A DNA stretch of 64,000 nucleotides from Turritopsis dohrnii (Eukaryota > Cnidaria > Hydrozoa > Anthoathecata > Oceaniidae), in NCBI GenBank assembly GCA_027922465.2, contig BQMF02000213.1, forward strand, positions 1-64,000, in the 5' to 3' direction. This document shows, one piece after another, positions 9,987-30,300 of the stretch. Each line of letters begins with the position of its first letter. The first letter of the stretch is position 1. The notes beneath the pieces were generated by a model, which was given only the letters and a program-made list of their open reading frames with translations, did no database searches and had not been told where the DNA came from. The position numbers and the translations under genes are program-made.

Positions 9987-11182
9987 TCATGAGACACATT
10001 GCATCAGCCTTACTTGACAAGGGCGAGTTAGCCTGTGGTGTGTTCGTCGATCTCCAGAAGGCCTTTGACACTGTTGATCATGAAATCTTACTTTCAAAAC
10101 TTAAGCACTATGGTATTAGAGCCGTTGCCAATAATTGGTTCAGGTCCTACCTTTCAGAACGCTTTCAATTTGTCACTATTCGCAGCTCTAATTCGAAACT
10201 AAAACTCATCAAACATGGAGTCCCTCAAGGCTCTGTTTTGGGTCCTCTCTTATTTTTGTTGTATATAAATGATCTCTGCTATTGTATTCGTACGTCAAAC
10301 ACATACCACTTTGCAGATGACACTCATCTACTTAACTTTGCAAATTCTGTGAAATCTCTCTGTGGAAGAGTTAATGCTGATCTCAGGATTCTGGTCGAAT
10401 GGTTGAATGTCAACAAAATCTCTCTCAACGCTAGCAAAACTGAGTTCATGATTTTTAGATCTCCCAGTAAGTATCTTGACTGCACTCCTCGCATTAAACT
10501 TGCAGGTCACTTTTTATCTCAAAGTAAAAGTGTTAAATATCTTGGTGTTTTGCTGGATGAACATCTCAATTGGAAAAGTCATGTCTCCTCACTAACCTCA
10601 AAACTCAGAAGAGCCAATGGTGGTCTCTCAAAACTTCGGCATTTTGTTTCAGTTGACGTCCTTCTCAATGTCTACCATGCCATTTTCATGTCCCATGCAA
10701 GATATGCCTGTCAAGTCTGGGGACTCTGTGATAACTCTGTTACTCACAGAGTTCTCACACTTCAAAACACGTCACTATTCTCCCATCCCAGAACCTCAGC
10801 CACTAAATTGTGTTCTGATCTTGGAGTTCTTAAATTTTTTGATCTAGTCAAAGTAATGAACATCCTATATGTTCATAGATTTCTCAACCAAAATCTACCG
10901 ACTGATAGCCTTTCTAATCTTAGGTTTGACAAAATAAGTCATTCATTTGGAACTAGAGGTGGCAGTAGGGGTCTTTTCAAGCTACAGTGTGTTAATACGT
11001 CATCGTTTGGTTTGAACTCTTTTTGTCGCACATCTTCCCTTCAGTGGAACCAGTTTCAACTAAATTTTCCTAATCTCAACCTTTCTGACATCACACCTTC
11101 TAAACTGAGATCCATTGCATCGCAATTTTCATATTACCTACTATCTCCAAAAGATATGAGAAAACCATGGCATGGAGACTAA
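9987..11182 (+). CDS. LINE reverse transcriptase, 5'-truncated, C-terminal 397 residues
   Basis: A non-LTR retrotransposon reverse transcriptase of the Jockey/CR1/L2 type. The palm is recognisable: VFVDLQKAFDTVDH (residues 18-31) carries the first catalytic Asp, GVPQGSVLGPLLF (77-89) is the usual turn, and FADDTHLL (108-115) carries the catalytic Asp pair. Thumb and C-terminal sequence follows without a break to a stop at 11180-11182. The fingers motifs and the endonuclease are missing; upstream of about 9985 the sequence is unrelated, as expected of 5' truncation during target-primed reverse transcription. The Met at 9989 is only the first in-frame one. The copy is immobile but relatively young, because 397 codons stay open. 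The 3' end of the element was not located. Confidence 0.9.
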
Positions 11183-11910
11183 ATTGAAAACTGCTCTTGG
11201 AGTTATAGATAGATCCAAACATATCACACAGAATGCTCTGTCTCAACTCTTTGCAAATGGCAAGAGTGCCTGGATAGCAAAGGCATGATAGGGACTGTGA
11301 TCGAATGGCCCTATCTAAGGCTTTTGAGCAAAGCTTACCTTTTTGAGTTCTTCCTTGTTGTGCTTCTTCTGTTCCCTCTCAGCAGCAGCAGAAACTTCAA
11401 AAAAAGTTCACCTTCCTTTGTGGTAAAAACAAAGACGTCAATGATATTTAATTATTGACATAAAAGTTTCGACCTCTGTTCGTTAAAAAGTACAAAATTG
11501 AAAACGTTCAAACCGGTTTGACCATCTTTACGACATTTACAGCCCGGGCTGTAAATGTTCACCAATCAAAGCACGAGAAATTAGAAGGCGCTAGTGAAAC
11601 TGGTGAACTGGTTGAATAAATAAAGTTCTAAGTTTTTAGTTTTTTTTTCTTTTCATAGAAATCCAATTAAATAATAAAAAACATTCACCTCTCCACCTCC
11701 CTGTTCTTATAATGTGCATCTTGTGTTGTACAGGGCGCAAGACTGGAGTGACTGTAAGAAGATTCGGAAATAATCGGAATTATAAATGGCTGCCGCCACC
11801 TTGTGTTTTTGCTTTGTGAAAGAGAATAAAAATAAGCTGCTGTTTTGTTGTATTTGAATTCTTTTGCTTCGTTTGAAGAATTCAAACTTCTAGCAGTATT
11901 ATATTAAACA
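11183..11910. other. LINE downstream region; 26-bp perfect palindrome at 11533-11558
   Basis: Possible LINE 3' flank with no coding sequence. Positions 11533-11558 form a perfect 26-bp palindrome centred on CAGCCCGGGCTG, and a smaller palindrome CAAACCGGTTTG lies at about 11510. Confidence 0.6.
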
Positions 11911-12005
11911 GCGTTGTGGGGACCATGCATGCAACCTTTGTGAGCCAAATGGTTGAAATATAAAATACGTTTTGTTGAAATTTACACAAATGCGTTGTGG
12001 GGACC
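11911..12005. repeat. Two dispersed copies of the GCGTTGTGGGGACC motif
   Basis: Exact copies at 11911-11924 and 11992-12005 match the array near 4.3 kb, about 7.5 kb away. Flanking sequences do not match, so only the short core is shared. Confidence 0.75.
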
Positions 12006-12475
12006 AATGAAACTTTCGGACAATTTAACTGGTGAGTATGCGCTAAAAATACTGTCTAAACTTAATATCCAAGTCTCAGTGCTTGGAGGAAAACAAGATT
12101 CAATTCTGTTTTTAAAAAGTTTAGTACTTTTTTTTGTTTTTGTGGATAACGTAATATTGCTATTGGATTTATTTTTTGGTGTTTTTGGTTAACCGTGTTT
12201 GAACCAGTAGGTAAAACAAAACAGAAACTAAAGAAAAGTAAGTCTGTATTAATTCATGTTTTTCTTTCCGTTGTGGGCTGTTTCGTTTCTAGCTAAGCCA
12301 AAAAGAAATATATATATTATATTATAATAATAGTCACTAGCTATATACCAGTTGTACTACTTTTGTGTGTGAAGCTACATCATGGAAATCTGTGACTGTC
12401 TTGTGAGTTGCACATTATGTTGAAGACTAATACTTTTTAGATGAATTCCGTTGTTTACATTTCTTATTATCCCGA

Positions 12476-12610
12476 AGTGACTATTCTTACGTGTGACTGT
12501 ATTCTTCATTTATGCGTAAATCGCAGTGACTATTATTCATACGTGACAGTATCTTAATTTATATTTTCTATTCGCTCTATAAGGTACAGTCACGTATGAA
12601 TAGTCACTGC
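12476..12610. repeat. Inverted plus direct repeat, AGTGACTATTC...ACGTGA family
   Basis: Left arm 12533-12565 (GCAGTGACTATTATTCATAC...) pairs with 12580-12610 in inverted orientation. A third, direct copy begins at 12476. This makes a compact hairpin plus tandem copy, likely a MITE relic. No coding sequence. Confidence 0.65.
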
Positions 12611-14445
12611 CTAATTATCGACTTTCATAAAGTCTTAGTTAAAAATCACCCCAAGGTTTCTCCCATTTTGACTTCTTTAATAAATAAATCGTTTTCACTA
12701 AAGTTAACCAAACAGATGTTCAGGGGGTGTAGTGTAGCACTGTCTGAAAATTGACAAAAACTCTGACTTTTTATGCAAAATTACCTTCAAACTAGGTGGG
12801 TTTTTTTGAAAAAGTTTGCTTTCTTTTTTGGTAATGAGTGGATATATACTGTCCGTCTTTTCTTCTTCTTAATATTATTTTTGTGTTTGAAACAGAAATG
12901 TTGATCTTTTATTAATTTTAACTTTTTCCCTCCCACTTAGCTTTATTAGGTGCCTCCACTTTGTTTATTAATAAAATTGTAATAATTGAGGAAATGAATT
13001 CGCCATGAATAATAAAGTTATTCAAAAAACCATATACATTATTTAAAAGTTTTCAAAAGCTTTTCAGAATAAAATCCATCCTCAGTGAAGGTATTGTACA
13101 AGTAATTGTATATCTCCGAATCAATTTTTAGATTTTGAATGCTTGCAAAATCTCTTGAAGATCAAGTTGAGATGTCTTTTCTTGTTTTAGGCAGGTTTCG
13201 TTTGATCTGTTATGAAAGCTGTCTACAATCTGTTGGTTTCCTGACCACGCCGTGGTGTAGCAGAAACTATTTAACTTAGGCTTCATCTAGATGTTTTCTT
13301 TTTTACTTATGAAACTAGTTTTTTTAGAGACAAAGTTAGTGTTGGAGTTGTAGTTGGTAGCTTGGCATATATATATAACACAAATGTCATTTGGGAAGGT
13401 ACAGCAGTTGCAAGTTATTTTTAAGTCTTTCTTGATATTGTTAAAATCTGTAACTAACATTTTTATCATTGCTGTTATGTTCACTGATATCTATTATTTT
13501 GAAAAACAGACTAATTGACTTTGAACACTTTTCAAATGAATATTGTATTATTTTCGTTTTTCCAATAGTAATAAGTTTTTCTTGGTTAAGAATAGAATAT
13601 TTGAATGTAGGAAACCGTAAAATAGACAGTGAATAGTTTTCATAGTGAATAAAATGCAGAAATCAAACAACAGAATAGCACATAGCCTTGAAGGCGAGAG
13701 AAAACATAAGAAAGTATTACTTTCAAATTTTGTTATGTTTAATTTTATTATGGAAAATGTTATGGTATTTAAGAACATTGTCTAAAATTACCAGGAAAAG
13801 AACTACAGGATACAGGATGTATATTCATATTGACATGTAACATAAACTGCCAGGAAAGAGAAAGTTTTAGAATGCCTTTGTTCACTCAAATTTTGCGATT
13901 ATGTTAAGGACGCTGCGCGAAATAGTTTAAAAAGACTTTTCCCGTGAATTTCGCTTGAATACGTCGATCAATTTTGGTGGGTGACCAACGCTTTGATTAT
14001 TTCGTGTGAGTTGAGGTTCTTATGGCAATTTTTGGAGAAAACAAAAATGAAGCGATAGATGGGTTTGGTTAACAATTTTTTCCCTTTGAATACGAAAATC
14101 AACTTTTATTCAAGTGTTCACAAGTGCTGGGAAATCCGCCAAAAATAAATCATGTGGAGTATGTGCGTTTTGTAATTTCTTGTTTTTTCTTTCCCGTTGT
14201 CTGGAGAATTTTGAGAGAAACACGGTAAAAATCGTGTTTTTGATCGATGAAATTGTTTTTCGGATGTTCGAGAAAGTATTATTTTTTCCGCTTAGCGATG
14301 TTTACAAACTGTCTTTAACTCTAAAGTGCGCAAAGATTATTGCGCGGAAATCAGATTTTACTGAGAACGCAAAAATTGAACTCGCGAAATTTGAGTGAAG
14401 TGATTTCAAATTGCTGATATTTATGATTTGTTTATGTATTTTCAG
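12611..14445. other. Intergenic; upstream region of the chimeric gene
   Basis: No exon is called. From about 13900 the sequence has more CpG (GCGCGAAAT, CGATCG, GCGCGG) than its surroundings, which would suit a promoter or first exon of the gene whose first recognised exon starts at 14446. No TATA box or start codon could be fixed. Confidence 0.3.
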
Positions 14446-17117
14446 AGAGAGAAGAGAGTAAAAATTGATCATGAGGAAGTGGCGAAAACCTACATCGCTA
14501 AAGGAGAAGATCGCAAGGGCCTTAATTTGACCTACATAAATTCATCTATTGGTAAGCGACCAATTTAGTGATAAGGAACCATCATCACCAAAATCATCTT
14601 GCAGGGATCGTTGCAGAATTCCAGCCACAAGAACCTTACTATACCTTAGCTCAACAGAAATCACAAGGCGTGCGAGTAGCAAAAAACTCATACACCTTTT
14701 CATTAATTACGTCACTTTCGATCTTTACAAGCATTGCCTCGTTTCTAATCAGCATATTAATGGCGTTTCTTTGCATGATAAAAAGATGTAATGTCTTGAG
14801 GGTTATAAACTTTTGTGATCATTATTATCATGTAAAAGGACGTCGTAATTATAATGATTAGAAACGAGGCCATGTTTGCAAGTAATGTCTATGTCTAAGT
14901 AATGTTACACTAATGACAAGTTTGTCAAAGTTTCCTGTTTCATTTAATTAGGAAAAAGTAACAGATATTTAGCAGAATTTAATTTAAAAACAAATTTGAA
15001 AAGAATAGAAAAGAATTGACCGTTCTCGGAATCTTAATATCTCCTTAATACATGAATACATCTACCACAATGCAATGCAGTAAAAGTCATTAAAAATGAA
15101 ATAACAAAAGGGCTTCACGAACGAAACTGATATTAAGGAGAACGTCGAATACACCTTTCCCGGATTCATGTTTATATGCTATATTTTGGCGGAGTTGTCC
15201 GCACGGGCCTCGTCTCTGTGCCTATAATTACTGAAAATTTTCCCACTGCGATTTACAAATTAGCTAAAGCACAATTTCCAGATTACAAAAGAACACATAA
15301 AAACGAGACCAGTACTGACATTACAGCCTGAATACAACATATAAAAACGAATTCGGGAAAGTTGTATTAGCGTGATTTAATAACTTTAGAAAGAGAGTCG
15401 TTTCTCCATTTCTATTCTCTTAGATCTGGGTTCGGACAATACAACCTTTCTAATTCACGTCAACACACGGCAATACAGAGAATTAAACTAATTAAACTAA
15501 TTAACGGCCACCTCTGATTAGCGGAAAAATTTTGTTTCACTGGCTGCTTTCTGATCAAAGTCTCATAAAAAAACTTTCTGAATAGCGGACACCCTAATTA
15601 GCGGACAATATTTTTTGTACAAGATAGTTAATATGGCTGTTTTTTTCCTTTCCAATTAGCGGGCAGTCCTAAAATATTAAGAGCCAGCAAGCAAAAATAG
15701 GGAAAAAGGAATAGTTTTTCAAATATTTCTTTTAAACACTTTGAAACTTCAGCTCGAACTTTTTTACTATCCAGTTTACCAACTTTTCTTGTCCATGAAA
15801 GCGGTAAATTACAGAAATCTCTAGACCATAGCCTCCTCTACGATTTAATCTCTTTCTACTAACTTGACTAATCGTACCGGCTTTTCGTCCACCTCATTAG
15901 ATGGCTTATGGCATGACTCCACTATCCTATCTCCTATCGGGATACTCACTAACTCACTCACTAACAATCATAATATGTTTTCGTAAAGAAATAAATAAAG
16001 ATTTTCGCAACAAACTATATTAAAAAATTGCAGCTTGTTATATATCTATAATTTATAGAAAAAAGTTTATAAACATATGATAAAGTTTATCAACTTTACA
16101 TGAGGTTCATTTTTGCATGCAACCTTAATCATTGGACTATATAGAGTGTGTCTATCTAACAATTTGAAACCATCAAACTTCTCGGTGAAAATTCTCTTAA
16201 AAGTGTTTGGAAGAACGAGACATCACGTTACCAAAAACTCACCCTCCCTAACAAATTTAACAAGGTTTTAACCATAAAGATTTGATGCTTTGTTAGATGA
16301 CTATATGTATACATACCCAAGGCTGAATATAAATGTTCAACCTCAGACTTTGCCCGACGCAAATATTCATACAGACATATGGATTATTTGATCAGAAAAA
16401 AATGAAGAAAAGATCAGGAGATTACGATTGTGAACTTGCAAACAATTTGTTCTTTTTCTTCGCGACAATAAATATTAATTGGTTCTGTAAATGCTACTCC
16501 TGTGGTAAGTCAGTCTAATGTATATAATTTCTGCAGAGATAGCTGTTGATGATTGGCCATGTTCCATACCCAATTTATTTATTGACTTCAAATAACGGAA
16601 GCCTAATATTTGTAGCAATCTGTCCCTTAGAACATTTAAGTCATTATCTACCAAATTTCTTTACAGGGTATGGTGTCTTTACTGATTGAAAATTCGTAAA
16701 GGGAGAGTTTCTCCTGGAATATCCAGGTGAACATATCTCAGCAACAGAAGGGAGAGCACGTCAAGAGAACTACGACGAATCAGATGGAAATTTTTTGTTC
16801 TTCTACAACAAGCTCTGGTAAAACTATATCTGTATAAATGACAGCAAATTACAACTGGGATAGAATTCAGCGGAATTTTGGACATAAATGGAAATTCTAA
16901 TGATTTTATCTAACTTTTATCTAGCATCGATGGAAAACGCGCCACGCGACTGGGCAAATATGTTAATGACAGCGCTGTAGTCCATTCCAATTGCAAAATG
17001 CGACCAGTCAGATTTAATGGGCGTGTAAATTTTTGTTTATTTGTCCTGCTAGACGAGATTCCATCTGGCACTGAACTACGCTATTCGTATGGTGAAAATG
17101 GTTTACCATGGAGACAG
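14446..17117 (+). CDS. SET8/KMT5A-like SET domain, exons 1-3 of the chimeric gene
   Basis: Three exons (14446-14551, 16667-16817, 16925-17117) join in phase into a SET domain of about 150 residues. It reads YIAKGEDRKGLNLTYINSSI, then GYGVFTD (cofactor-binding GxG), KFVKGEFLLEYPGEHI, CIDGKRATRLGKYVNDS, and LRYSYGENGLPW at the end. The layout matches PR-Set7/KMT5A lysine methyltransferases (SAM-dependent histone methylation). Two departures: the NHS motif is NDS, and the usual ELxYDYG is ELRYSYG. Codon 16687-16689 is an in-frame TGA between FTD and KFV, where CGA (Arg) would restore the frame. No Met lies in exon 1, so at least one upstream exon is missing from this call. Exon 3 runs in phase 0 into the linker and kinase exons. 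Confidence 0.8.
14728..14882. repeat. Intronic inverted repeat
   Basis: GCCTCGTTTCTAATCA near 14738 recurs inverted as TGATTAGAAACGAGGC at 14857-14872, in the first SET-gene intron. It is probably a small MITE. It accounts for the misleading open frames at 14549-14861. Confidence 0.6.
15148..15367. mobile_element. MITE family A, copy 1, intronic
   Basis: An approximately 220-bp palindromic element. The left end ACACCTTTCCCGGATTCATG pairs with the right end CGAATTCGGGAAAG, and subterminal GGGCCTCGTCTC pairs with AACGAGACC. It lies in the intron between SET exons 1 and 2. A second member is at 21850-22060 in a later intron of the same gene. Confidence 0.75.
15368..16666. other. Remainder of SET-gene intron 1
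   Basis: Non-coding. Short words TTAGCGGACA/TTAGCGGGCA recur between about 15515 and 15665, probably old repeat sequence. Confidence 0.5.
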
Positions 17118-17779
17118 GTAGTTATTCATCATCACTTGACGTTCAAATATTGTCAGTACTTCTAACCTTGTTTTTATGAAAGTTTCGCTAAATTTAATCT
17201 AAAATGAGACCTGATGACACTCAAAGAATACGTCACTAATTTGCCAACTGCTGTCGTTTGGCATTCTATGTTCTTTATTTACTCGTTTGTTGACTTTTTA
17301 AATGTAATTTACAAGCATGTAGTTTATTATTCTTAAGTTTTCAAAACATTTCAGCTGAGCTGCATCTTATAATTTCCTGGTTCTCTTAATTCAAAACGTT
17401 GTAACTGAAAGGTTTTCGATTTTTGATTGAAAAATCGTATGCGTTAAAAAATACAGCATGAAAACTTGTTTGCTTAAGGAATTATTAGAAGCGCACGAAA
17501 TGATAGTAAAGATTTGCGATTCCACACGACATTAGTTTGACGTCACAACAACGTTGATATGACGTTGTTTCAACGTCGATTTTACGTTATGTGCCGACTA
17601 GGCAATAATTTCTGTACCAAATTTCAATTCACCTAAACCATGTAGCACAAGTGAAACAATTGTACCCATAACGCCCTAAAGGAACGGAGTTTCCCATTTG
17701 CAATTCAGCATGTTTTACAAGATGGCATTTGAGTATAAAATGTGTCAAACGACTAACAATAAAAGAAACTTACTTATAG

Positions 17780-18129
17780 GATGAATCCACAAAGAAGCCA
17801 TTTCGAAATCCATTGAAAGCCTCTCAGGTACACTTCTAGATTGATAAAAGAATGATTTTAAATGATAAACTTGCAATATGAATCATCAATCATCCATGTA
17901 ATAACAGGTTTTGGCCGAGTTTGCACCTCCTAATTGTAGCAGTACAAGCTCACTTGAAAAGAAAGTAAGTGAAACTATATCAAAAAAACTATGTATACAG
18001 ATTTATTGTATACATTGTATACATTGTAGGTTTTTTAATTATTTTTAGGTTGAAATAGTTGGAATAAAAGACGTTGGTACGACAGAAGTCAAATTGCAAA
18101 ATCCAAAGTCAAATTCACAAATTGAACAC
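17780..18129 (+). CDS. Linker exons 4-6 of the chimeric gene
   Basis: Three small exons, all phase 0 and all multiples of three with GT-AG borders: 17780-17827 (48 nt, DESTKKPFRNPLKASQ), 17908-17964 (57 nt, VLAEFAPPNCSS...) and 18049-18129 (81 nt, VEIVGIKDVGTTEVKLQNPK...). They connect the end of the SET domain (LPWRQ) to the kinase without a stop. No known domain; probably flexible linker. Their coherent phases are the main evidence that SET and kinase belong to one transcript. Confidence 0.65.
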
Positions 18130-18441
18130 GTAAGATAATGATTGTTGGTTGTTAATTCTCGGTTGCCATGTTTTAAATTGTCGTGTTTTCCTAATTTGCA
18201 ATTTGGGAACGATGATCTGGCTACACTATGCCAAAATACATTTTATTCCGGCATAAAGAGATTTGTGGTTACATAGTGAAGACCAGGCCTACTGACTTAC
18301 AGTAATTTCATTGTTTTGAATCTTCGAATCTCTTGTAGTTTTCTCCCATTTCAACTGTGTTTGTCCCATTAGGCTCTCGCTACATTTTTTAATTCATTGA
18401 CATTTATATAGTTAGGGAAAAAGCCGAAAAATATTTTTTAG

Positions 18442-19491
18442 ATATTAGATTGGTCCCATTACGTGAAGACGAAGTTAGCAGGTGAAGGGCGCTTCGCACG
18501 TGTTTACGAGGGAAAAGATGTTACTTGTGAGAAGAAGGTTGCATTGCGTATTTTAAAAGCAAACGAAGCAGCTGCCTTAAACAATCGAAGATTGGTAGCG
18601 GAAGCAAGCATTTTACGCTCTGTTTACCATCCCAATGTTGTGTATTGCGAAGGACTGCTATTAGGTGGAGAAAAAGCCTTCGTTTTAGAATGGTGTGAAT
18701 TTTCCGTCTTTGATGGGTACGAGACAGTATGCGTCCATTCTTTGTATGGATTAATGAAAACCTTAGAAGAAAGCTTGCCATTTGATATGAAATTGTGTTG
18801 CCTTATTGACATTATGTCAGGCTTGGTTTTTCTTCACTGTAAAGAAATTGTATCGGGAGATTTGAAACCGGCAAACATTTTAACAGCAACTCGATCGGAC
18901 AACAGAATTCAGTTTAAAATTGCCGATTTTAGTGTCAGTACTCTTACATGGCACGCATCTTCATCGCTGGCTTCTTCCTGCGTAAATAAAGATATTGTAT
19001 ACAGTTTGTACTATCTTGCACCTGAACAAATAACATCTGCGTATGCAAAAACTAACAACTTACAATCATCTATGGATATTTTCGCATTCTCCATACTTGC
19101 CTATGAAGTTCTCTTTCCTGAAAAGCCTCTTCCAACCTATATATCTCCAGTACAGCATCTCCAAGCGATAAAAGATCAATGGCGACCAGTAATCCCCGAA
19201 ACAAAAGATGACCGTAAATTATTTGCGCCGATCTTAAAAGCTTGCTGGCACGAGTGTCCAAACATGAGATGGTCAGCTGAAAAGGCATTAGAAAGCTTAC
19301 AGACCATAAAAGCATCGGTAGGTAACCAAACAAATTCGACTGTTGAAACTGGATTCAAGACTAAATTAGTTAGTGAAACTTTTCAAAAACGCTTTATAAA
19401 TACTATACACAGATTTTTTCAGATTTTCATTTTTAAAAATGTTCATTTTGTTTAGATTGCTGAAGAAGCAGGCACAGGTGCTGAATTTTAA
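18442..19491 (+). CDS. Divergent protein kinase domain, exons 7-8 of the chimeric gene
   Basis: Exon 18442-19317 (292 codons, phase 0) holds a complete kinase fold: glycine loop GEGRFARVYEG, beta-3 VALRIL, hinge region ALEWCEF-like (VLEWCEF), catalytic loop SGDLKPANIL, metal-binding motif ADFSVST, activation-segment end YYLAPEQI, and subdomain XI CPNMRWSAEKALESL. Several normally invariant residues are changed: the VAxK lysine is Arg (codon 18547-18549), HRD is SGD and DFG is DFS. The catalytic Asp, the Asn and the DF Asp remain. It is either a weakly active or a pseudokinase. Exon 8 begins at 19456 (IAEEAG). It either terminates at 19489-19491 (GAEF then TAA), or uses a donor after 19477 and continues into the acidic linker. 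The second choice gives a coherent long frame. Confidence 0.85.
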
Positions 19492-19595
19492 CTCCTGACT
19501 TACTTAGTACATTGAACAACTTTCAATATCATTATTCCTTTTAATTAATTTACCTGGAGCCCTTTCAATTTCCGCGAACTTGGATTATGTTCATG

Positions 19596-20078
19596 CATGG
19601 AGGTATAAAACAGAAGGAGAAATCTTCTATTATAATATCCGTGATGCGCCGCATTGTTTAAGTCCTAAGTGTATAATAACATATAATTGGTATCATTTTG
19701 CATAATTTTTATAATTTTGGTGTCCTTGCGTGAAAATTCTCCAATGTGATTAAAGATCGTAAAGGTAAAGTGCTAAGCATGCATAATCTGGTGGAATTGG
19801 TAGAATTATGCAAAAACGTCACATATATGCAACGAAACCATTGCAACTTTAAGTCCATATATCTCGTGATCCCCCTTAAGCAGTTTCGCGGAGCTTTAGT
19901 TTTTGAAGAGAGAATAATCCTAAGTCTTCTTAATTTTTAAAACAGTATTCTTTTCACCGACAACCAGCCAAAAGCGCATCATGGATGACATCAAAGAGAT
20001 ACCGAAATGAATAGAATAGTCATTATCTGAATAACAGAATAATAAGAGTTCGTTCTCCTTCTGTTTTATACCTCCATG
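19596..20078. mobile_element. 483-bp intronic element with perfect 26-bp TIRs
   Basis: 19596-19621 (CATGGAGGTATAAAACAGAA...) is the exact inverse of 20053-20078. The interior is non-coding; the open frame 19746-19940 is not protein-like. It lies between the kinase exons and the acidic-linker exons. It is a MITE-type element whose superfamily is not assignable without a clear target duplication. Confidence 0.8.
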
Positions 20079-20330
20079 AATTATGGAACTAGATTTAACA
20101 GATTTCTAAGAGAGAGTCTCCACGAAAGAGCCAACCATTTGCTTATCCTTTGCTCATTATTTTGATATCGTTCGACCTCTCACACCGAAAAACGAACTTT
20201 TCGAAATTTCCACTTTGCAAATGTTGTTTGGATCGTTTTATAGAAACATACATTTCTCTGTTAAATTAAACACATTAAATGTTTAGTTTGACATGAAAAT
20301 TTCCATGAAGCTAAGAGTAATATGTTATAG

Positions 20331-21846
20331 ACTTTCGCTGCTTATCAAGAACAATCCCAGAAGTGTATGAAGTTCCCCTTGAGCAGTAAGTTGAATATTT
20401 TTGATTTTTATTACTTAATGCCAGAATAAACTTGATAGTTAGTTAACATCTTTTTTCATCTTTCTTTCTTTCTTTCATTTTAACATTCCCTTTAAAGATC
20501 AAAACATCAAGAAACAGAGCAAAAAGATTTCGTCAAAAAAGAGGTAACTAAATGTTCATCCATATTATTGCAATAATACAATATCATAATACAAATTGTA
20601 GTACAATATTCAAATATAGTGGAGCCTTTTTGTTTGATGCAGGTTTCTAAATACTTTGTCTGAAGTTATTATGTGACTTACTTGTACTTAATTGTACTTA
20701 TGTACATACCTGTTGTCAAAAATCATCAAAATCAAAAATCAAAATCATAACTAAAAAGGCTTTCTGTATAGATTGAATTCGCTGATAATAACGATATACT
20801 GTCGACTGAATGTATCAATAACGATGTTCAGGTACTTGTTTAGATTTATTTACTCAATAGAAAAGAAGTTTTAAAACAACATATTCACAAGAGAGTCTGG
20901 AAAGTCTTCAAAGTTTATTTCCTTTATTACTTTAATAGGATGAGAATCTAGAAGAAAACATTCCAATCGTAGAAGTAGGTCATTATGGTAGTTTTATTTG
21001 ATCCCAATTGTTTATCAAGAAAGTATTAGAAGCCTGTTTGAATACTAACTTCATTGTGTTACAGACTTGACAGCATTTTTTAACGCCTCAGATTTTTGCC
21101 TGACATTGCAATTCTCTGGCATTTCCAACATACAAAAATTGTAGACTCTAGTTTTGATCTCAAAAATTTGTACTATGACATCAGCATTATTTCATTTGCT
21201 TATTTATCTATTTGCTTATTTAAGTATTTCATTTATCGACTTTAATATGGAATATAAAAATATAAACAGTAATGTAGATCTACTCTCAGGTCCTGAATAG
21301 AACAGGAAAAGAAAGAACTTTTTTTTTTTCCAACACGTTTTCAGGCAGATTTTGTAACAGATAACAAATGTTGATTGTAACAATAATTAAAATTCAACCC
21401 CACCCCGGCTCATTAAGGACCCCACCATCCCACGTTTATTCAAGACTTAAAAGTAATGTTGAAAACTATCTTGTACATTGCTTGTAGAATAACATTATTA
21501 ATGACTCTGGGATACATGGAGAATTTCCAAGTGTGATAGATACAGAAGATGATGACGAAATTTCAGATAACCAATCCTTAGTGAGTAATTTTCAATGTCG
21601 ACTTCAGTTTATTCATTGTTGATTGTCTGAATTTGGAACTTTTTGCTTCTACATTTAAGGAATCAGTATCCACCGAGGATTCTGATTACAAAGTGTCTTC
21701 AGAAACTGATGAATCCGAGATCGTGAACTCAGATTGCGAAGATGAAGATCTCCATCAGGTTGTTAACAAAAATCATGAGGATAAAGATGTTGACGTTTTT
21801 GAATTTGGTTCCGCTAATTCAGAAGAAGAAGACGAAAATCAGTCTG
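20331..21846 (+). CDS. Acidic linker exons 9-14 of the chimeric gene
   Basis: Six exons splice in phase after 19477: 20331-20385 (DFRCLSRTIPEVYEVPLEQ across the junction), 20498-20543 (SKHQETEQKDFVKKE), 20772-20831 (IEFADNNDILSTECINNDVQ), 20939-20974 (DENLEENIPIVE), 21488-21580 (NNIINDSG...DTEDDDEISDNQSL) and 21660-21846 (ESVSTEDSDYKVSSETDESE...). The product is strongly acidic, Ser/Glu/Asp-rich and without a globular fold, like the N-terminal region of many transposase-derived nuclear proteins. The last exon ends at GCAAGT, the standard donor of a GC-AG intron, which abuts MITE copy 2. Assignment to one gene rests on phase continuity; no cDNA was available. Confidence 0.6.
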
Positions 21847-21849
21847 GCA

Positions 21850-22060
21850 AGTTATATTTGTATCAGCGTATTTTGTGTTGTCCATACGGGTCTCGTTTCT
21901 GTGCTCATAATTATCGAAGCTTTTCCCACTGCGATTTGCAAATGATCAAAATCTATAATTTAATAATTGTCAAATAACAAAAGAATACATCAAAACGAGG
22001 CCCGTATGGACAACAAAGCCAGCATACAACATATAAAAACGAATTCGGGAAAGGCGTATA
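21850..22060. mobile_element. MITE family A, copy 2, at an exon border
   Basis: Shares the interior (GGTCTCGTTTCTGTGC, CCCACTGCGATT) and the right end CGAATTCGGGAAAG with the copy at 15.1 kb. The left end is eroded and touches the GC donor of the preceding exon. Confidence 0.75.
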
Positions 22061-22483
22061 GCTAAACACCAATTCAATTTCCGTTAACGGTGACATATCG
22101 TATGACATTTAAACGCAGCTTTTCAAAATCCTCAACTTTCCATATTCTTTTTAATAGAAACCGCGCCAACTTCTTTTCTACCCTCTTATATACTATACAC
22201 CTTTCTCGCTTTCATCAACTTTTTACCCCTCTAAATCAGTATCAGTAATCAGACCTTTCTGTCATAGTTTCTGTCACAATTACAATGTAAAGTAGCTAGA
22301 ATTTGAATAATAAATAAAATGGATACTAAGATCTCTAGTGACGAATTAGAGGTCAAGTTAATAAATAACAGGAAAAAGGTGTATAACATATATACATATT
22401 ATTCCTTCTCTTTCTATATAGGATTTCTATAAGTGTTCCATTTAGAAATATAACAGAAATATAACAGTTTTTAATTTCTTTAG

Positions 22484-24315
22484 AAATAATAATCTCAAAG
22501 GCCAAAAAACAGACAGATTCTGGCCTGAGAATTTATGATCGCCACCATGCATGTTTTTATTGTGGTGTTTTGGTGGGTAAAATATCAGGACACCTGCAAA
22601 GGCATCATGGCAAAGAAATAGATGTAAAAAATTTTCTGGTTTTGTCAACCAAAGATTTTGAACAAGCGAAGAAGAGAAAGCTTATGATTGATTCGTTAAG
22701 AAAAAAAGGTGATTTTTATCACAATGCAAAGGTACTAAAGACGGGCACCAGAGAATTGATCGTTTACAGAAGAGAATCGATGGAGGCTGCCAGGAAAAAT
22801 TTTGCCAATTTTGTTCCCTGTAAGTTTTGTTTGGCCTTTGTGACAAAGACTGAGCTGCGGCGTCATTGCTCAAATTGCAGCCACAGGACTGGTGAAGGTT
22901 TGGATAACAGAGGCATACAGCAGCAGTGTGAGCTTCTTCTGTATCCCCACAAAAAGCCACTAGAATGCTCTCTGGAGGTACAAGAATTCATAATTAGACC
23001 AATGAACAATGACCAAGTGAAGGAATTAATAATCCGCGATGAGTTACTACTTATGTATGGTTCGTTCTTGGCTAGTGGGAAGGGAGTAACGAAAGCTAAC
23101 GGAATTTCTCAAAAACTACGTGTACTAGGTCGAGTAGTACTTGAAATGAGAAAACGCTTCCCTGAGTACCAATTGCTGAATTGTTTACAACCAAGTCACT
23201 TTGATGATCTTGTTGAATGCACAAAGGAGCTGGCTGGATTTGTGCAGGTAAATGGCGATGGAGAAAAGGTCCCAGGATTTCAAAAGCCATCTCTTGCTTT
23301 GAAAATTGGCTATGCACTTGATAATGTCGTGATGCTAATGCAGGGGTTAGCATTAAGGAGGAGTGATTGTGAGTTGCTGGAGAAAGCAAAACATTTTCAC
23401 CAGTTGTATGCCAGTGAATGGTCAATTCGAATCTCTTCTGCTTCGTTAAGATCACTTGCTGACAACAAGTTCAATAAGGAAGACCTGTTGCCATTGACTT
23501 CTGATCTCCTTCTGTTAAAAGAACACTGTGATGAAGAAATAAAGACCTTGACATCGTTGTTAAAAGAGAAACCTAATGTAGAAGATTGGAGGCAACTAGC
23601 AGAGCTTGTGTTAACATGGATCACAATTTTTAACAAGAGACGTGGAAACGAACCTTCCTCCTTACTGCTAAAAAGATATATTGACAGACATTTGCGTTGT
23701 AAAACTATCCATAGTGACATTACCGATTCCCTCTCAAACCTGGAAAAAACTCTTCTTAACAGGTATTTTATGAAAATATTTTGGATCTATAAACTAGAAA
23801 GTCATATATGAATTTTGTTTCATGTTTTTTTGTACCTAGGCTTGATTTAGTACACATTCGTGGAAAACGTGGAAGGCAAGTGCCACCACTATTGACGGAA
23901 GATGCCGTAGATGCAATGGATGTGCTTGTAAGTACGAGAAATGATGTTGGTGTTGCGGAGGACAACATTTACTTATTTGCGACACCTTCTCGGCTTTCCA
24001 AAAACCCACTTAGAGGTTATCAGTGTCTCAGCAATGTTGTCCACCGAATAGGTGGAATTGAGAAGCCGGAGTTAATCAAAAGTACGAAGCTTCGAAAATA
24101 TATAGCCACAGTGGCACAAATAGCGCAGCTAAAGTCCAATGAACTTGAGTGGTTAGCAAACCATATGGGTCACAATATTGATGTCCATAAGGAATACTAC
24201 CGCTTACACGAGTCGACTGTCGAGCTTGCGAAGGTTAGCAAATTGCTGTTGGCTGTTGATTCCGGGTTAGGCAAAGAATTAGTGGGGAAAAGTTTGGATC
24301 AGATTACTCTGACAG
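22484..24315 (+). CDS. Zinc-finger and tyrosine-recombinase (Crypton-like) domain, exons 15-16
   Basis: Exons 22484-23762 and 23840-24315 join in phase into 584 residues. The N-terminus has a C2H2-like finger (ACFYCGVLVGKISGHLQRHH), followed by a second Cys/His cluster (CKFCLAF...HCSNCSH). The C-terminal half has the tyrosine-recombinase layout: Arg I in FNKRRGNEPSSL, the beta-turn Lys in IRGKRGRQVP, LR of the HxxR box in STKLRKYIAT, GH in LANHMGH, and the nucleophile Tyr nine residues after that His (NIDVHKEYYR). The first His of HxxR is Thr here. Such recombinases join DNA through a covalent phosphotyrosine; Crypton transposons and domesticated relatives encode them. The frame is open throughout. 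It is either a Crypton-type transposase or a domesticated descendant. Confidence 0.8.
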
Positions 24316-24408
24316 GTTTGTTTTATTATCTCTCTCTGTTCTTTGTTTCTCTCTCTCTCTAAAAAGTAAAGATAAAAAATATAGCAAATAACTTTTTTGT
24401 CAATGTAG

Positions 24409-24955
24409 ATATTCCTTCCATAACTGATGAAGATCCTGTGACAGAGACTGCAAATGAGGAAAATATTGATAACAGCAATAGTGGTATGAAAAAATTTGAA
24501 ATTTGAATTTTATCTGAAATCGAACGGGTGCTGATAAGTTCTTCCATATACTTTAGATGGAAACTTTAAAAATTCACCTGCTGCTATGGATGCAAAGAAG
24601 TAACCGATGTCTAATGGTAGCTGATAATGGTAGTTTTCCTTTAAATCAAACCATGTCATGTTTCATATGAATGTTTATACTATTCATTATAGATTCTGAG
24701 CGTACAAAGACGTTGATAAGAAAACTTAAATAGAACACACATGTTCGAAATTGGAAAAAGTGGTCACCCGAAGAATCCAGTTTGATTTTAGAAACCTTCC
24801 ATCGAAATATCACAGAAGGGAAGTTGCCGGGAAAAAAAGAGTGCCTGGATATAATCCAGTGCAATCAAATTTTAGGAGAAAGATCGTGGAAAAATGTAAA
24901 AGATTTCATTAGAAATCATATTGAAAGAACACGAAAGCGAAAAGTAATTCTGTAA
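24409..24955 (+). CDS. C-terminal tail exons with Myb/SANT-like segment
   Basis: Exon 24409-24483 (phase 1 both ends, acidic: DIPSITDEDPVTETANEE...) follows the recombinase exon. It can splice to 24557-24603, which ends quickly at TAA (DGNFKNSPAAMDAKK), or to 24693-24955. The latter encodes a Trp-rich, Myb/SANT-like module: NWKKWSPEESSLILETF, then GKLPGKKECLDII, ERSWKNVKDFIRNHI and a basic end, stopping at TAA 24953-24955. In that exon codon 24731-24733 is TAG, just before the module; CAG would restore Gln. So the long isoform is broken or read through, while the short isoform is unaffected. A helical DNA-binding module at the C-terminus would suit target recognition. Confidence 0.6.
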
Positions 24956-25538
24956 TTTGTATACACAATGTTGTTTCCTTTTGTTTCTTTTGCTAACTAA
25001 TTCTTCTGTTCTTTAGATATAGACATATGGTAACCATGGAAATCTTTGATTATAGTATTGGTTGTTTGATTTATTTAGTTTTTCCAGGGCTGTAGCGAAG
25101 ATTTGATAATAAATATTTCATAGTTCTGTTTACATGGAGTTTGGACAGAAAGAGAAAGTTAGCAAGATTCGGTCTTTTATAGACTCTTCAAATTTCTTAC
25201 TGCTTCTAATCAGGAAATAGTTTATTCCTTTGAATTTTGAAAGAAAATATTTCCTTTCTTAATAAGCCTCCTTTCTTCGAAGTACGAGGAACGAATCATG
25301 GCAAGTTTTCTCTTAAATGATTTAGTTTATTGAATATTTCCTCTTTTTAGTGCACCCCTGCAATAAACGGCCCCCTCCAATAAGCGCCCCCCTAATTTTC
25401 GAATAAATTTAATAAGCGCCCGGGCGCTTTAATAGAGTTATAGGTAATTATGGCAGTAATTTATTCCTTACTTCCATTCCTTGAATTTTAAAATTTTAAA
25501 TTAAGAAGTATGTTTTATTTCAATAATTTATTTATCTA
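24956..25538. repeat. Non-coding, with GC-rich AATAAGCGCCC repeat words
   Basis: At 25345-25440 words such as AATAAACGGCCCCC, AATAAGCGCCCCCC and AATAAGCGCCCGGGCGCTT recur in a GC-rich patch. A related patch is at 36825-36905 (CGCCCGGCGCTTATT). This is probably a dispersed repeat family. Confidence 0.55.
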
Positions 25539-26476
25539 CTAGCCGCCAAGGCGGCGTCGCTCGCCGCCCATATCCACCTACTCTGTGTATCACTGTATCA
25601 ATAAACGGCAAATTACTTTATAAACGGCTCATACAACTTGGAAAAGATTCGAAGTCACAACTTCTGGTGTGCAGTCAGTGTTACATCAGTGTTACATTAA
25701 CTATTTTTCAGGTTTTTCATTATGTGTGACTTATTTATTTTTTAAAACCAATCGTTGATCAGTACAACAATACACTCAAAACGTAGGAAGAAAAACTTCC
25801 ACTTTTTATTAGCTTTTGTAAAAAAGCTTTTTTAAAAAAGTTACGCGCTCAAACATGGGTGCTATAAAACAGGTCGAAAATGGTTTCTCTTCTTAAAATG
25901 TTCACACGGGAGGAGAGAAAAATTGCACGTGCTAAATGAATAAAGAGAATAAAACAAACGTTCGATCAGATTAAAATAGATTAAAAGAAATCGATTAAAA
26001 GAAATTAAGACAACTATTACGACAAAAGCAAAAAAAAAAACATTTTGTTTTATGATACTCTTTTTATACCTATCGGTTTTTAAACATTTTGATAGCTGAA
26101 AAAGAAAGTTCACCCGTCTCAGACAGTCAGGCAAGAGTTAGTGACAAACCGAACATGCTGCCACGTTCTGCCACTGCTGCCTTTTTGTCCAAACTGTTTA
26201 ATCAGTTAGTTTCTTTGTATTTAGTTGATGTATTGTTGTCAAAGCCAAGTCAACGTGGAATATAAAACTAACAATAATAATAAAAACAAAACGTTATCTC
26301 TATTGGTTCACCAGCAAAAAAAAGTCACGTTCGATTGGGGGTTGCAATGTATTTGTTTCAAACTGACGTCGCACAAAACAAAATAAAATAAAATAATTAC
26401 TCTCAGAGCTCAATCTACCATTTTGCGTGACAGACAAACAAACAGACAAACAGAGAATCGGCTATTAATATATAGA
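25539..26476 (-). mobile_element. Non-autonomous Helitron, copy A
   Basis: Read on the minus strand it begins TCTATATATTAATAGCCGAT at 26476 and ends with the hairpin GCCGCCTTGGCGGC overlapping a terminal CTAG (25539-25542). The flanks are A before the 5' TC and T after the 3' CTAG. These are the Helitron hallmarks (5' TC, 3' hairpin plus CTRR, AT insertion, no TIR). It is 938 bp long, without Rep or helicase, and must be mobilised in trans. Copies B (32263) and C (45635) share most of the interior. Confidence 0.85.
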
Positions 26477-27326
26477 TTGGTGTACTGACTAGTAGAGAGA
26501 CGAAAATCGTTTCAAATTATTTATTATCTAATTTTCCAATTTTATTTGTATATTTTTTCAAAGTACTATAGTTCATTCCTTTGAATTTTGAAAGAAAACT
26601 GTTTCGCATGTTTTCTCTTAATAAGCCTCCTTTCTTGATTGAGTTCACAGTAGTCTCTCTCTCTGCGAAGATTTTGCGTTTTTTACTCATGACATTAAGC
26701 ACTCACTAAATATCGTAATGGACAAACAAACTTAGACATACAAACACTGAATAATAACAAGCGAGAACAACAACCAAGCGTCAATTCGAAATAGTTTTAC
26801 AGAATCGGATACTGTTTCATCATAAAATGGTTTTGATGCTGTTGTCAACCTAAGTCTCTAAGTTAACGACCATGGTACTACCATTCAATGATAACTGAAT
26901 GTTCTCTAGTCAAAACATCAGCTACAACCTCTAAAGTCATACCAGAAATAGATAGGCCATTGTCTACAATGTCACAAAATATGTCATAGAGCATAATAAG
27001 TTGACTCGAATCCCATTATTATTATTGTTATTAACGATATTTATTCAGGATAAAAGTTTCAGTTTACAAAATGTACAATATATACACATAAAACTGTTTT
27101 CCTGATCAAATAAACTAAAATTCAAAGATAAAAATAGAATATAGAAGTTTTAATGATAAAATGTACAATAAAAATAAAGATAAAGATAAAATTTCAGGTA
27201 GCTAGAGCGAGATCGCAAAACTAAATAAAGGTTGAATCCTCCAGCAAAATAGCACGAATTTATGACAGAAGAATGATGTACTACGAACAATAGACGTATT
27301 AGCTAGAAGGAGCCTTATCGGTAATT
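26477..27326. other. No gene recognised
   Basis: AT-rich DNA between the Helitron and the LINE remnant. Small open frames are not protein-like. Confidence 0.4.
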
Positions 27327-30300
27327 CTATGTATCTAAAAATCCTCTTTCAGAGATATCTAATTTGTTAAAAATTTTATCAGCACCAAAGTAAAAACTAC
27401 TTCTTGACGTCTTGAGGTTTATGGACGGAAGTTTTAAAGATCGCTTCTTATTTCTTGTCCCTTTAGTATGAACCAAGAGATCGAAATAGTTATCGAACAC
27501 GTTGTGTTGAATTTCTTTCTTCAAAGATTTCTTAACTAATGAACAAATAAATAACGGCTTTTGTATTTTTGACAGAGTTCGTACCAATGATTCTCGCTGC
27601 ACGGTGCTCTAAGGACTCGATCTTTGAGCTTTGACTGCGAGTGTAGGATGTTTTGATTGTGGAGCTGTACGTTAGTATTGGCAGAATCATTAAATCGTAA
27701 ATGATATTCGATGCTTTGACAGTTAACGATAACGTTACCAAGGTAGCAGTATTGATTGACGTTATTGACAATAGTATTATTATGGACTATTGTTAGCTGA
27801 TAACCATATCTTTTCATTCGTTGAGCTGTGCCTAAGAGCATTACCTGGGTTTTCCCTTTTTTAAAATTTAGGAGTAATTCATTTTCCTATTATATTTTCC
27901 TATTATATTTGGCAATCAATGGCAGTCACGTACTTTGCTCCAAAGAAATCCGCATATTGTATGACTTTTGATTGGCAGACATAGTCATTCAGATCGTTGA
28001 AAAATACGATAAACAGAAGGGGTCTAAGTATGGACCCCTACGGGACCCCAGACGTTATAGATTCTTTTCTTGATGAATGGTTGTTGATCTCAACAGTTTG
28101 CGTTCTATTGAACAAGTAATCGGTTACCCAGGATAATTCAGGTCCCAGAACACCATGTAACATTAACTTTTCAAGAATGATACTATGTCCCATGGTGTCA
28201 GACGCTTTTGAAAAGTCCAAGAACAAGCATCCTACAAGAAACCTATTCTCAAAGTTTTTGCGTACAGAGTCACAGAGTAATGTTGCGGCTAATTTAGTTG
28301 ATCGCCGTTTTCGGAATCCGAATTGGCAGTCACTGAGAAGATTGTTATTCTCTAGGTAAATATACAGCTGATCATGAACAGTTCTTTCGAGTAGCTTTGA
28401 CAGAATTGGTAAAATCGAAATGGATTGATAGTTTTCAACAATATCAGGATTACCAGATTTGAATATTGGGTTGATTTTTGCTGATTTCCACAGTGTAGGT
28501 ACTGTACTAGTACTAAGTGATAGGTTTATGATGCGAGCCAATGGACCTGCTATCTCCTCAGAACAGTCTTTTAGCATGTTAGGGGGGAGCAAATCGATAC
28601 CAGTAGCTTTGTTTCTCTTCAGGCTGTTTAGATGTTTTAGTACATATCCTGGTGTAATATATGAAAACTTGAAAATGTTCTTGGTTCTTAAAGGTTGCTT
28701 GTAGTCCATATGCTATCCCTCAGTGGAAAATTGATTGATTCCATTTTACGAACGATATTGGAGAAATAATCTGAAAAACGTTGGACACGATCAGATACTT
28801 CAGTTGTCCCAGACTCTGTAGATTTTGATTTGGTCGGGAATAACGACTTGATGGTTTTCCAGAACTTTTTCGGGTTGGTATTTTCCTCTTCATTTAGGAT
28901 TTTTCGATAGGATTATTCTGCCCAGCGAGCCTCAGACTCAGGATTGATTTTGCCTATATTGCTTTATGATGCAGAATCTTGGTGTCTGAGTGAAAAATTA
29001 TTTTCCATGCTGTGCATTTTTCATAACTGCTGTATTCGTGCTATGTGTAGAGTGACACTAAGAGACTGTTTTGAACAACGTATTAGTACCGATCAACTTC
29101 TTGACCGTATGAGCTTTCAATCGTCATTTATGTAACAAGAAGGCAACTCCGTTGGGCCGGCCATATCGCTAGAATGGACTTTACATGTCTACCGAGAAGA
29201 ATGTTATCAAGCTGGGTACCTTCTAAAAGACCTGTTGGCGCACCCGAATACACGTATGGTCGTGGGTTGTATAAGGCGCTTAAGAAAGCTGGCGTTGATA
29301 AAGATGCTTGGTACGATTTGGCCGCTGATAAATGTAATTGGACGAAAATTATCTCTGATATAAAATGATAGTTCTTTTATTTTATATTTTATACGTTTTA
29401 TTTTATTTTTTAGTATACACACGCGCTGTGACTACTAGGTTTTCTAGTCCAATTCCCTATTGGGATGGATCATTTCTCTCTCTCTCTCTCATTCATTTCT
29501 TTCTTAATGTTGTCATCTATCCAGTCACTGGGTTTTCCTTTGATACGCTTTTCTATCAAAGGAGCATGTCTATCAAAATGTACGTCAATATTGTTCTCAT
29601 ATACCGGATTCCAGTCAATATCTCTGACGTCATTGCGAAGATTAGCTGAATTATATCGACAATAGTTTCGACATTTGATTGTTCGGTAAGAAAATTTTGT
29701 TGCATTAATTTTTCGACGACAGTAAGTCATGATCACTAATACAAGTTGTGACAACACTCGATGACGGAAAATTTGATGGCTTTGTGACAAAAATATGGTC
29801 AATTAACGTGTAGGAGTTTTGACAATTTGTTTGAAGCCGTAAAAAGTCATTATATTCTGATGTAAAGAAGAATTATTATCATTTTCGTAATTTATGTTAA
29901 AATCACCCATAATTATCATCTCTTTATTTTCTTTAGACACCCGTTCAATGTTCTTGTTCAACTAGCCATTGAAATTATTTGATAAGTGCTTAGAACTGTC
30001 AGGAGGGCGATAAAAACAACCGAAAATAAACGGTTTTGATTTTTTGATTGATATCTCAATGAAAATGCTTTCTATAGAGTCTTGCTGAAGGTCTGTAAGA
30101 TGTTTATAAGAAATTCCTTCCGTGATGAAAATTCCGACACCTCCTCAAGCGCCCTTCGACCTGTTACGTCCAACAAAATTGTATCCTTCTATGTTAAGAT
30201 GACCGCTAATATCTAATTCATCGTGCGATTTTAAGAACTCTTCGAAGGAATCAAAATGTACTCCTAAACCTTATGTTTTGGTGTCCCATTTTTAAACCTT

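Follow-up and report, generated by a model that had tools for sequence, protein, structure and literature searches.

A gene model joining SET, kinase and tyrosine recombinase modules

The first 64,000 nucleotides of contig C213 (BQMF02000213.1) in the 436-Mb assembly of Turritopsis dohrnii, hereafter the window, hold at 14446-24955 a long gene model that joins a SET domain, a protein kinase fold and a tyrosine recombinase (YR). It comprises 18 exons and 17 junctions (16 GT-AG and one GC-AG, with the GC donor at 21847), and a single frame runs for 1,368 codons with the stop through a KMT5A-like SET domain, a linker, the kinase, an acidic segment, zinc fingers, the YR and a Myb-like tail, in that order. 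The junctions, the single frame and the length of about 1,370 codons were as an earlier examination of these letters (the sequence-only reading) had proposed. The exons are as follows.

14446-14551, +, exon 1, pre-SET segment REKRVKIDHEEVAKTYIAKGEDRKGLNLTYINSSIG, after an AG acceptor, with a GTAAGC donor and phase 1 exit
16667-16817, +, exon 2, first half of SET, containing an in-frame TGA at 16687-16689
16925-17117, +, exon 3, second half of SET, with KYVNDS and RYSYGE motifs
17780-17827, 17908-17964 and 18049-18129, +, exons 4-6 (17780-18129 in all), SET-kinase linker, with GT-AG borders
18442-19317, +, exon 7, protein kinase fold, pseudokinase-like (Pkinase E 1.8e-33)
19456-19477, 20331-20385, 20498-20543, 20772-20831 and 20939-20974, +, exons 8-12, short post-kinase linkers delimited by their exon borders
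21488-21580 and 21660-21846, +, exons 13-14, acidic linker, with a conserved NDSGIHGEF motif and the GC donor at 21847
22484-23762, +, exon 15, two C2H2-like zinc fingers and the N-terminal part of the YR, with catalytic Arg-I at 23641-23643
23840-24315, +, exon 16, catalytic part of the YR, with Lys at 23865-23867, Arg-II at 24093-24095, His at 24171-24173 and Tyr at 24198-24200
24409-24483 and 24693-24955, +, exons 17-18, acidic piece and Myb/SANT-like tail, ending in TAA at 24953-24955

Two other exon assignments were rejected. An extra exon at 14605-14667 (GC donor) was discarded, as Hydractinia, sea urchin and protein P0043 join '..IG' straight to the start of SET; without it, exon 1 connects to 16667 with the phase unchanged. 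A gene end at 19491, just past the kinase, was discarded because that TAA lies in an intron: exon 8 (19456-19477) is followed by a GT donor at 19478, and the exon after it is matched in contigs C33, C482 and C87, so that the gene model continues past this point as the sequence-only reading had held. Position 14446 lies directly after an AG acceptor. One small candidate start exon lies at 12382-12402 (MEICDCL, followed by a GTGAGT donor); C567 has it too, and C33 has it as MEICVFL, but it was absent among the candidates of C87 and C578.

The window copy carries two in-frame stops

The frame and domain order of the sequence-only reading stood, but it had overlooked two in-frame stops, the TGA at 16687-16689 inside SET and a TAG at 24731-24733 ahead of the Myb-like tail. 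The TGA site is an Arg codon in C567 and C33, and the TAG site a Lys codon in C567 and C780. Each stop is a single-base difference from C567, that in the TGA being C-to-T at a CpG. The C567 copy is 97.7% identical over the gene and open for 1,366 codons through all 17 junctions; the identity continues at 96-99% in blocks from 8146 to 26893. Between the window and C567, dN/dS was 0.68 at a dS of 0.009, with too few changes to judge. A flank probe from 50-52 kb was repetitive, and none of its 49 matches listed fell in C567 or C780, so it does not tell C567 as the other haplotype from C567 as a segmental duplicate. Since the aligner used can bypass a stop via a false intron, the absence of stops is firm only for C567 and for single large exons. 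The window locus is best read as a broken, decayed copy from a real, little-studied family of many-exon genes.

A third near-copy lies at C780:107501-116957, on a contig that stops short of SET. Its tblastn pieces have frame breaks in the kinase and near the start of the Myb-like tail, the latter at a run of A, and these are perhaps sequencing errors.

Paralogues share introns and module order

Predicted junctions matched the window in position and phase at 17 of 17 sites in C567, 15 of 16 in C33 (whose model has two predicted introns, of 10 and 33 bp, where its linkers are weak) and 7 of 8 in the C87 piece, more often than chance would give. In the far more diverged C578, 7 of 20 introns matched, and one intron is 9 bp. 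The phase 2 junction between exons 2 and 3 recurs in C567, C33, C87 and C578; exons 8-10 are also readable in C33, and exon 9 (DFRCLSRTIPEVYEV) has counterparts in C33, C482 and C87. At the position of the GC donor, C567 likewise has GC and C33 has GT. Identity between C33 and the window is 80% in the DNA of exon 1, 86-87% in SET, 74% in the kinase, 66% in the zinc finger-YR exon, 78% in the YR catalytic exon and 62% in the tail.

Comparison of C567 with C33 gave dN/dS values of 0.034 for SET, 0.089 for the kinase and 0.24 for the acidic linker at dS 1.6-1.9, the values for SET and kinase (1.8-1.9) being near saturation (synonymous sites of the YR exons are saturated). These ratios show purifying selection. 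The linker of exons 4-6 evolves fast, with a dN/dS of 0.43 against C33, whose model is uncertain there.

Among 12 loci examined, each turned to the YR strand with minus-strand matches dropped, YR was found in all 12, SET in 11 (the C780 contig ends before SET) and kinase in 7, in one common order along the YR strand. No kinase was detected at E<1 at C521, C575, C154, C582 or C32, the C32 piece being incomplete. Genome-wide, the zinc finger-YR exon gave 105 matches, of which 23 contain stops. Within 10 kb of a YR, SET lay upstream on the same strand in 22 cases (about 0.11 expected by chance), upstream on the opposite strand in one and downstream in none; for the kinase these counts were 20 and 0 upstream, with 1 and 1 downstream. 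Within 20 kb, the counts (upstream same strand, upstream opposite, and the two downstream classes) were 29, 1, 2 and 0 for SET, and 24, 0, 3 and 5 for the kinase. These counts rest on best candidates from all 136 SET rows, all 105 YR rows and 93 of the 125 kinase rows (the 32 left out being mostly weak); several loci are near-identical pairs and hence non-independent, and the SET rows do not include that of the window itself. YR genes also form local clusters on C28, C46 and C176. The clusters at C28:853-935 kb and C46:141-183 kb have a similar layout and are possibly haplotypes.

SET-YR proteins in other animals

Among named relatives of the gene, those in Hydractinia are nearest. SET, zinc fingers and YR occur in one chain in Hydractinia P0001, sea urchin P0061, sea cucumber P0149, the nemertean protein P0055 (with a partial SET), P0095 of the clam Solemya, the frog protein P0091 and several fish proteins, P0107 and P0133 among them. 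By eye, a segment like exon 1 precedes SET in P0001, P0061 and P0043, and an NDSGIHGEF-type motif is found in Hydractinia P0001 and P0002 and in P0043; the linker motif NDSG[IVL].G[ED]F is shared by some single annotated SET-zinc finger-YR proteins (P0001, P0043). Together with the shared intron positions and phases of the paralogues, these single proteins support the earlier proposal that the stretch from SET to YR is one gene.

The joined protein had been regarded as an unusual single fusion. This did not hold: a profile built here found SET in 26 of 146 family proteins, three of the 26 being models from the T. dohrnii genome, and precomputed annotation gave SET in 20 of the 120 proteins listed (of 316). 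The 146 comprise 142 database proteins (P0001, P0002 and P0042-P0181) and four models from this genome; P0003-P0041, most of them generic kinases, were not used. Other N-terminal modules are Ulp1 (P0046), BRCT (P0054) and, in a fish protein with no SET match (P0092), a kinase with canonical VAVK, HRD and DFG motifs, unlike the window kinase. SET, kinase and YR together were found nowhere outside this genome among the matches listed. As to whether the three parts are always separate genes in relatives, SET and YR are joined, and the kinase is absent from the relatives listed outside this genome, except for the different one in P0092.

In a YR tree (FastTree, 142 of the 146 proteins), the window type groups with Hydractinia. 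The presence of SET changes 18 times on this tree, compared with 23.4 times after shuffling (0 of 500 shuffles as low), when truncated annotations are scored as SET-free. SET is thus scattered yet clustered beyond chance, which could reflect an ancient SET-YR fusion that was lost many times, repeated gains of SET, or annotations that are truncated. The zebrafish Chr4R SET genes (gene tree ENSGT00540000072423; PMC11075544) may be members of the SET-YR family. No description of this family was found in the literature searched, which included the available sections of PMC3212892, PMC12730594, PMC11075544 and PMC8455134; nor was a report of SET or kinase joined to YR found there.

Properties of the individual domains

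The joined SET of the C567 type had its best PDB matches in KMT5A/SETD8 (E ~1e-13); the exon 3 piece alone matched Pfam SET at E 0.01, below the cut-off. The position of the KMT5A NH motif reads ND in 20 of the 21 readable SET members (of 26), with NH only in Solemya.

The best PDB match of exon 7 was RIPK1 (E 9e-16), and the kinase fold proposed earlier was retained, but its catalytic motifs are degenerate, reading VALR, SGD and DFS in place of VAIK, HRD and DFG. All eight aligned kinases from this genome (a weak C776 match was not included) carry Arg at the VAIK Lys position, xGD instead of HRD, and DFS, DLN or DIN instead of DFG, suggesting that the domain is probably a pseudokinase.

The YR active site of the window is complete, with Arg, Lys, Arg, His and Tyr all present. 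Across the family (n=142), the corresponding residues are conserved in 139 (R), 142 (K), 142 (R), 139 (H) and 141 (Y) proteins, and the first residue of box II is Thr in 138 of 142. The modelled fold of the relative P0042 matched XerH, Cre, integron integrase and topoisomerase IB over residues 277-646 (best Foldseek E 1.1e-3, with low model confidence around the catalytic Tyr), confirming the YR fold in a predicted structure of this relative. A PDB sequence search with the zinc finger-YR exon returned nothing meaningful, and in the proteins scanned none of the Pfam families passed its cut-off across the zinc finger-YR-Myb unit, the nearest being Phage_integrase in P0085 (26.7 versus 27.1 bits). 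The zinc fingers of exon 15 were seen by eye and gave no Pfam zinc-finger match, and the tail piece matched Pfam Myb at E 0.058, below the cut-off. A Myb-like tail was detected by a loose motif in 12 of the 26 SET members (P0001 included) and by eye in about seven more; the other seven lack it, some being plainly truncated.

Comparison with known elements

The sequence-only reading had called the recombinase Crypton-like. Its YR fold was upheld, on the relative P0042, but not its assignment: the Crypton domain DUF3504 (PF12012) had no match at E<=1 in seven window pieces and P0001-P0003 (filters drop most matches >0.1), nor at E<=0.01 in 27 proteins. DUF3504 matched 13 places in this genome, none among the 105 YR-family places, so Crypton-like genes are present but separate. 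The label 'Crypton' is not supported for the SET-kinase-YR gene. Seven near-equal DUF3504 matches, at C39, C83 (two), C90 (two), C270 and C23 with open frames of 347-416 codons, possibly form a separate Crypton family.

Animal Cryptons (CryptonA, CryptonI) resemble the gene as animal elements encoding a YR, and are said to have neither a C-terminal domain after the YR nor terminal repeats (Kojima and Jurka 2011, PMC3212892). The window gene differs from them in its C-terminal Myb-like domain, zinc fingers, SET and kinase modules and many introns. An Ulp1/C48 peptidase is found in some oomycete Cryptons (PMC3212892), and likewise in the family member P0046. The YR retrotransposons DIRS and Ngaro also have a tyrosine recombinase; unlike in these, no reverse transcriptase was found in the seven exon pieces scanned. 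The nearest reverse transcriptase open reading frame (ORF), at 9974-11182, lies upstream of the model, mostly in sequence for which C567 and the window give no alignment.

As for SET, the closest enzymes are KMT5A/SETD8/PR-Set7, from which the gene differs in the ND motif and in being part of a recombinase protein. SETMAR is a SET domain fused to a mariner DDE transposase; it too pairs SET with a transposon enzyme, which in the window gene is a YR. Harbinger and MuDR elements are DDE transposons. The HarbingerS and MuDR families carry SET methyltransferase genes and are thus similar as transposon lineages with an acquired SET histone methyltransferase (PMC12730594), whereas here SET lies in one chain with a tyrosine recombinase.

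Element ends and mobility

Upstream of the gene lies a block shared with other loci.

11762-12322, no strand assigned, upstream block, 82-83% identical at C33, C401, C310 and C235

The block is probably the 5' flank or promoter of the family. An element end at 11762 was rejected, because the similarity fades gradually upstream with no sharp edge. C87 and C482 likewise showed no sharp outer ends when compared. At C310 the upstream block is kept, but in its 9-kb stretch the match to C33 ends about 1.8 kb short of the first exon, with no YR or kinase match listed; this does not distinguish a deletion from an empty site.

A SET-free sister gene with zinc fingers and YR (open frame of 726 codons) lies at C862:44001-49500 and recurs nearly identically at C870, C584, C786, C33 and C867 (two pieces), making six copies with C862. 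All matches begin inside the same (GT)n tract, a common left boundary. The left flank of C862 was matched at C87, C355, C69, C28 and C46, where the matches stop at or before the (GT)n end; at C87 the sequence after the tract differs from the sister element. Given the six near-identical copies and their common left boundary, the wider YR lineage has probably moved recently, although duplicated assembly pieces are a less likely alternative. Insertion of the sister element into GT tracts is a lead only, and the SET-kinase-YR form may either move as a unit or be domesticated. At C87:305357-305900, past the GT tract, lies a different high-copy repeat with dozens of further matches.

Origin and function of the SET-kinase-YR gene

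We consider it likely that the locus represents a disrupted copy of a single long gene with many exons, whose family arose from a YR transposon lineage that took up SET and later a kinase. The ancestor would have been an animal YR transposon that acquired SET early; in the lineage leading to this genome, a kinase would afterwards have entered between SET and the acidic hinge. The SET-kinase-YR subfamily may now spread mostly as duplicated genes, while the SET-free sister element would have moved recently. The product of intact relatives is predicted to be nuclear, about 1,370 residues long and composed of SET, pseudokinase, acidic hinge, two zinc fingers, YR and Myb-like tail. The zinc fingers and tail would hold a specific DNA site, the YR would cut and rejoin DNA via a 3'-phosphotyrosine, and SET would methylate lysine on nearby chromatin, opening or shielding the bound site or the element's own locus, with the pseudokinase as a scaffold. 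The protein most likely acts as a recombinase of the YR transposon kind that has gained a chromatin-modifying arm. The earlier suggestion that the product marks chromatin and cuts DNA is thus plausible for intact relatives but not for the window copy, with its two premature stops.

Several points weigh against this account. The model was read from genomic DNA alone; the 5' coding exon has one small candidate only; the C578 model is weak in the linkers and kinase; ND in place of NH makes methyltransferase activity unsure; comparison of the upstream block revealed no element ends for the SET-kinase-YR form; and the introns and local clusters are just as expected of a host gene family.

More tentatively, with the odds somewhat short of even, the gene may belong to an undescribed, animal-wide superfamily of YR elements in which a KMT5A-like SET is built into the recombinase polypeptide and marks chromatin at the recombination site, N-terminal modules (SET, kinase, Ulp1, BRCT) are swapped, and a pseudokinase was added in this genome. 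SET-YR relatives across several animal phyla are mostly labelled 'uncharacterized' among the matches listed. A recombinase whose active site is conserved and which contains a histone methyltransferase domain would allow a direct test of whether mobile DNA brings along chromatin modifiers of its own, and the kinase insertion suggests that the N-terminal half is still being rebuilt.

The strongest alternative, which we regard as unlikely but serious, is a domesticated host gene family, immobile, serving the host (in chromatin regulation or genome defence, for instance) and multiplied by ordinary duplication. It would account for the up to 17 introns and the upstream block common to paralogues, the low dN/dS over SET and kinase, the clusters on C28, C46 and C176 and the lack of element ends. 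However, the YR catalytic residues are almost always kept, unlike in domesticated Crypton genes, which have lost them (PMC3212892); stops occur in 23 of the 105 YR matches in this genome; and SET is scattered over the YR tree, with 18 changes.

It is improbable that both stops are sequencing errors in a window copy that the animal carries intact. Each stop is one base off a 97.7% identical copy, and the few changes behind the dN/dS of 0.68 leave room for this explanation, but both differences are substitutions rather than homopolymer indels, and a C-to-T change at a CpG is a common natural one. That SET, kinase and YR are three adjacent genes merely kept in order, as a model from genomic DNA alone that bridges introns of up to 2.1 kb might suggest, is very improbable in view of the phase-conserved linker exons in C567 and C33 and the single annotated SET-YR proteins in several phyla.

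Other features of the window

Outside the gene model, reverse transcriptase ORFs (RVT_1) lie at 9974-11182, 28038-28712 and 51863-52639, and DDE_Tnp_1_7 pieces and a Mutator-like transposase ORF at 34490-35026, 43111-43746 and 48135-48968. Positions 1-160 consist of a poly-C run at the contig start, followed by a 44-bp tandem repeat at 70-160.

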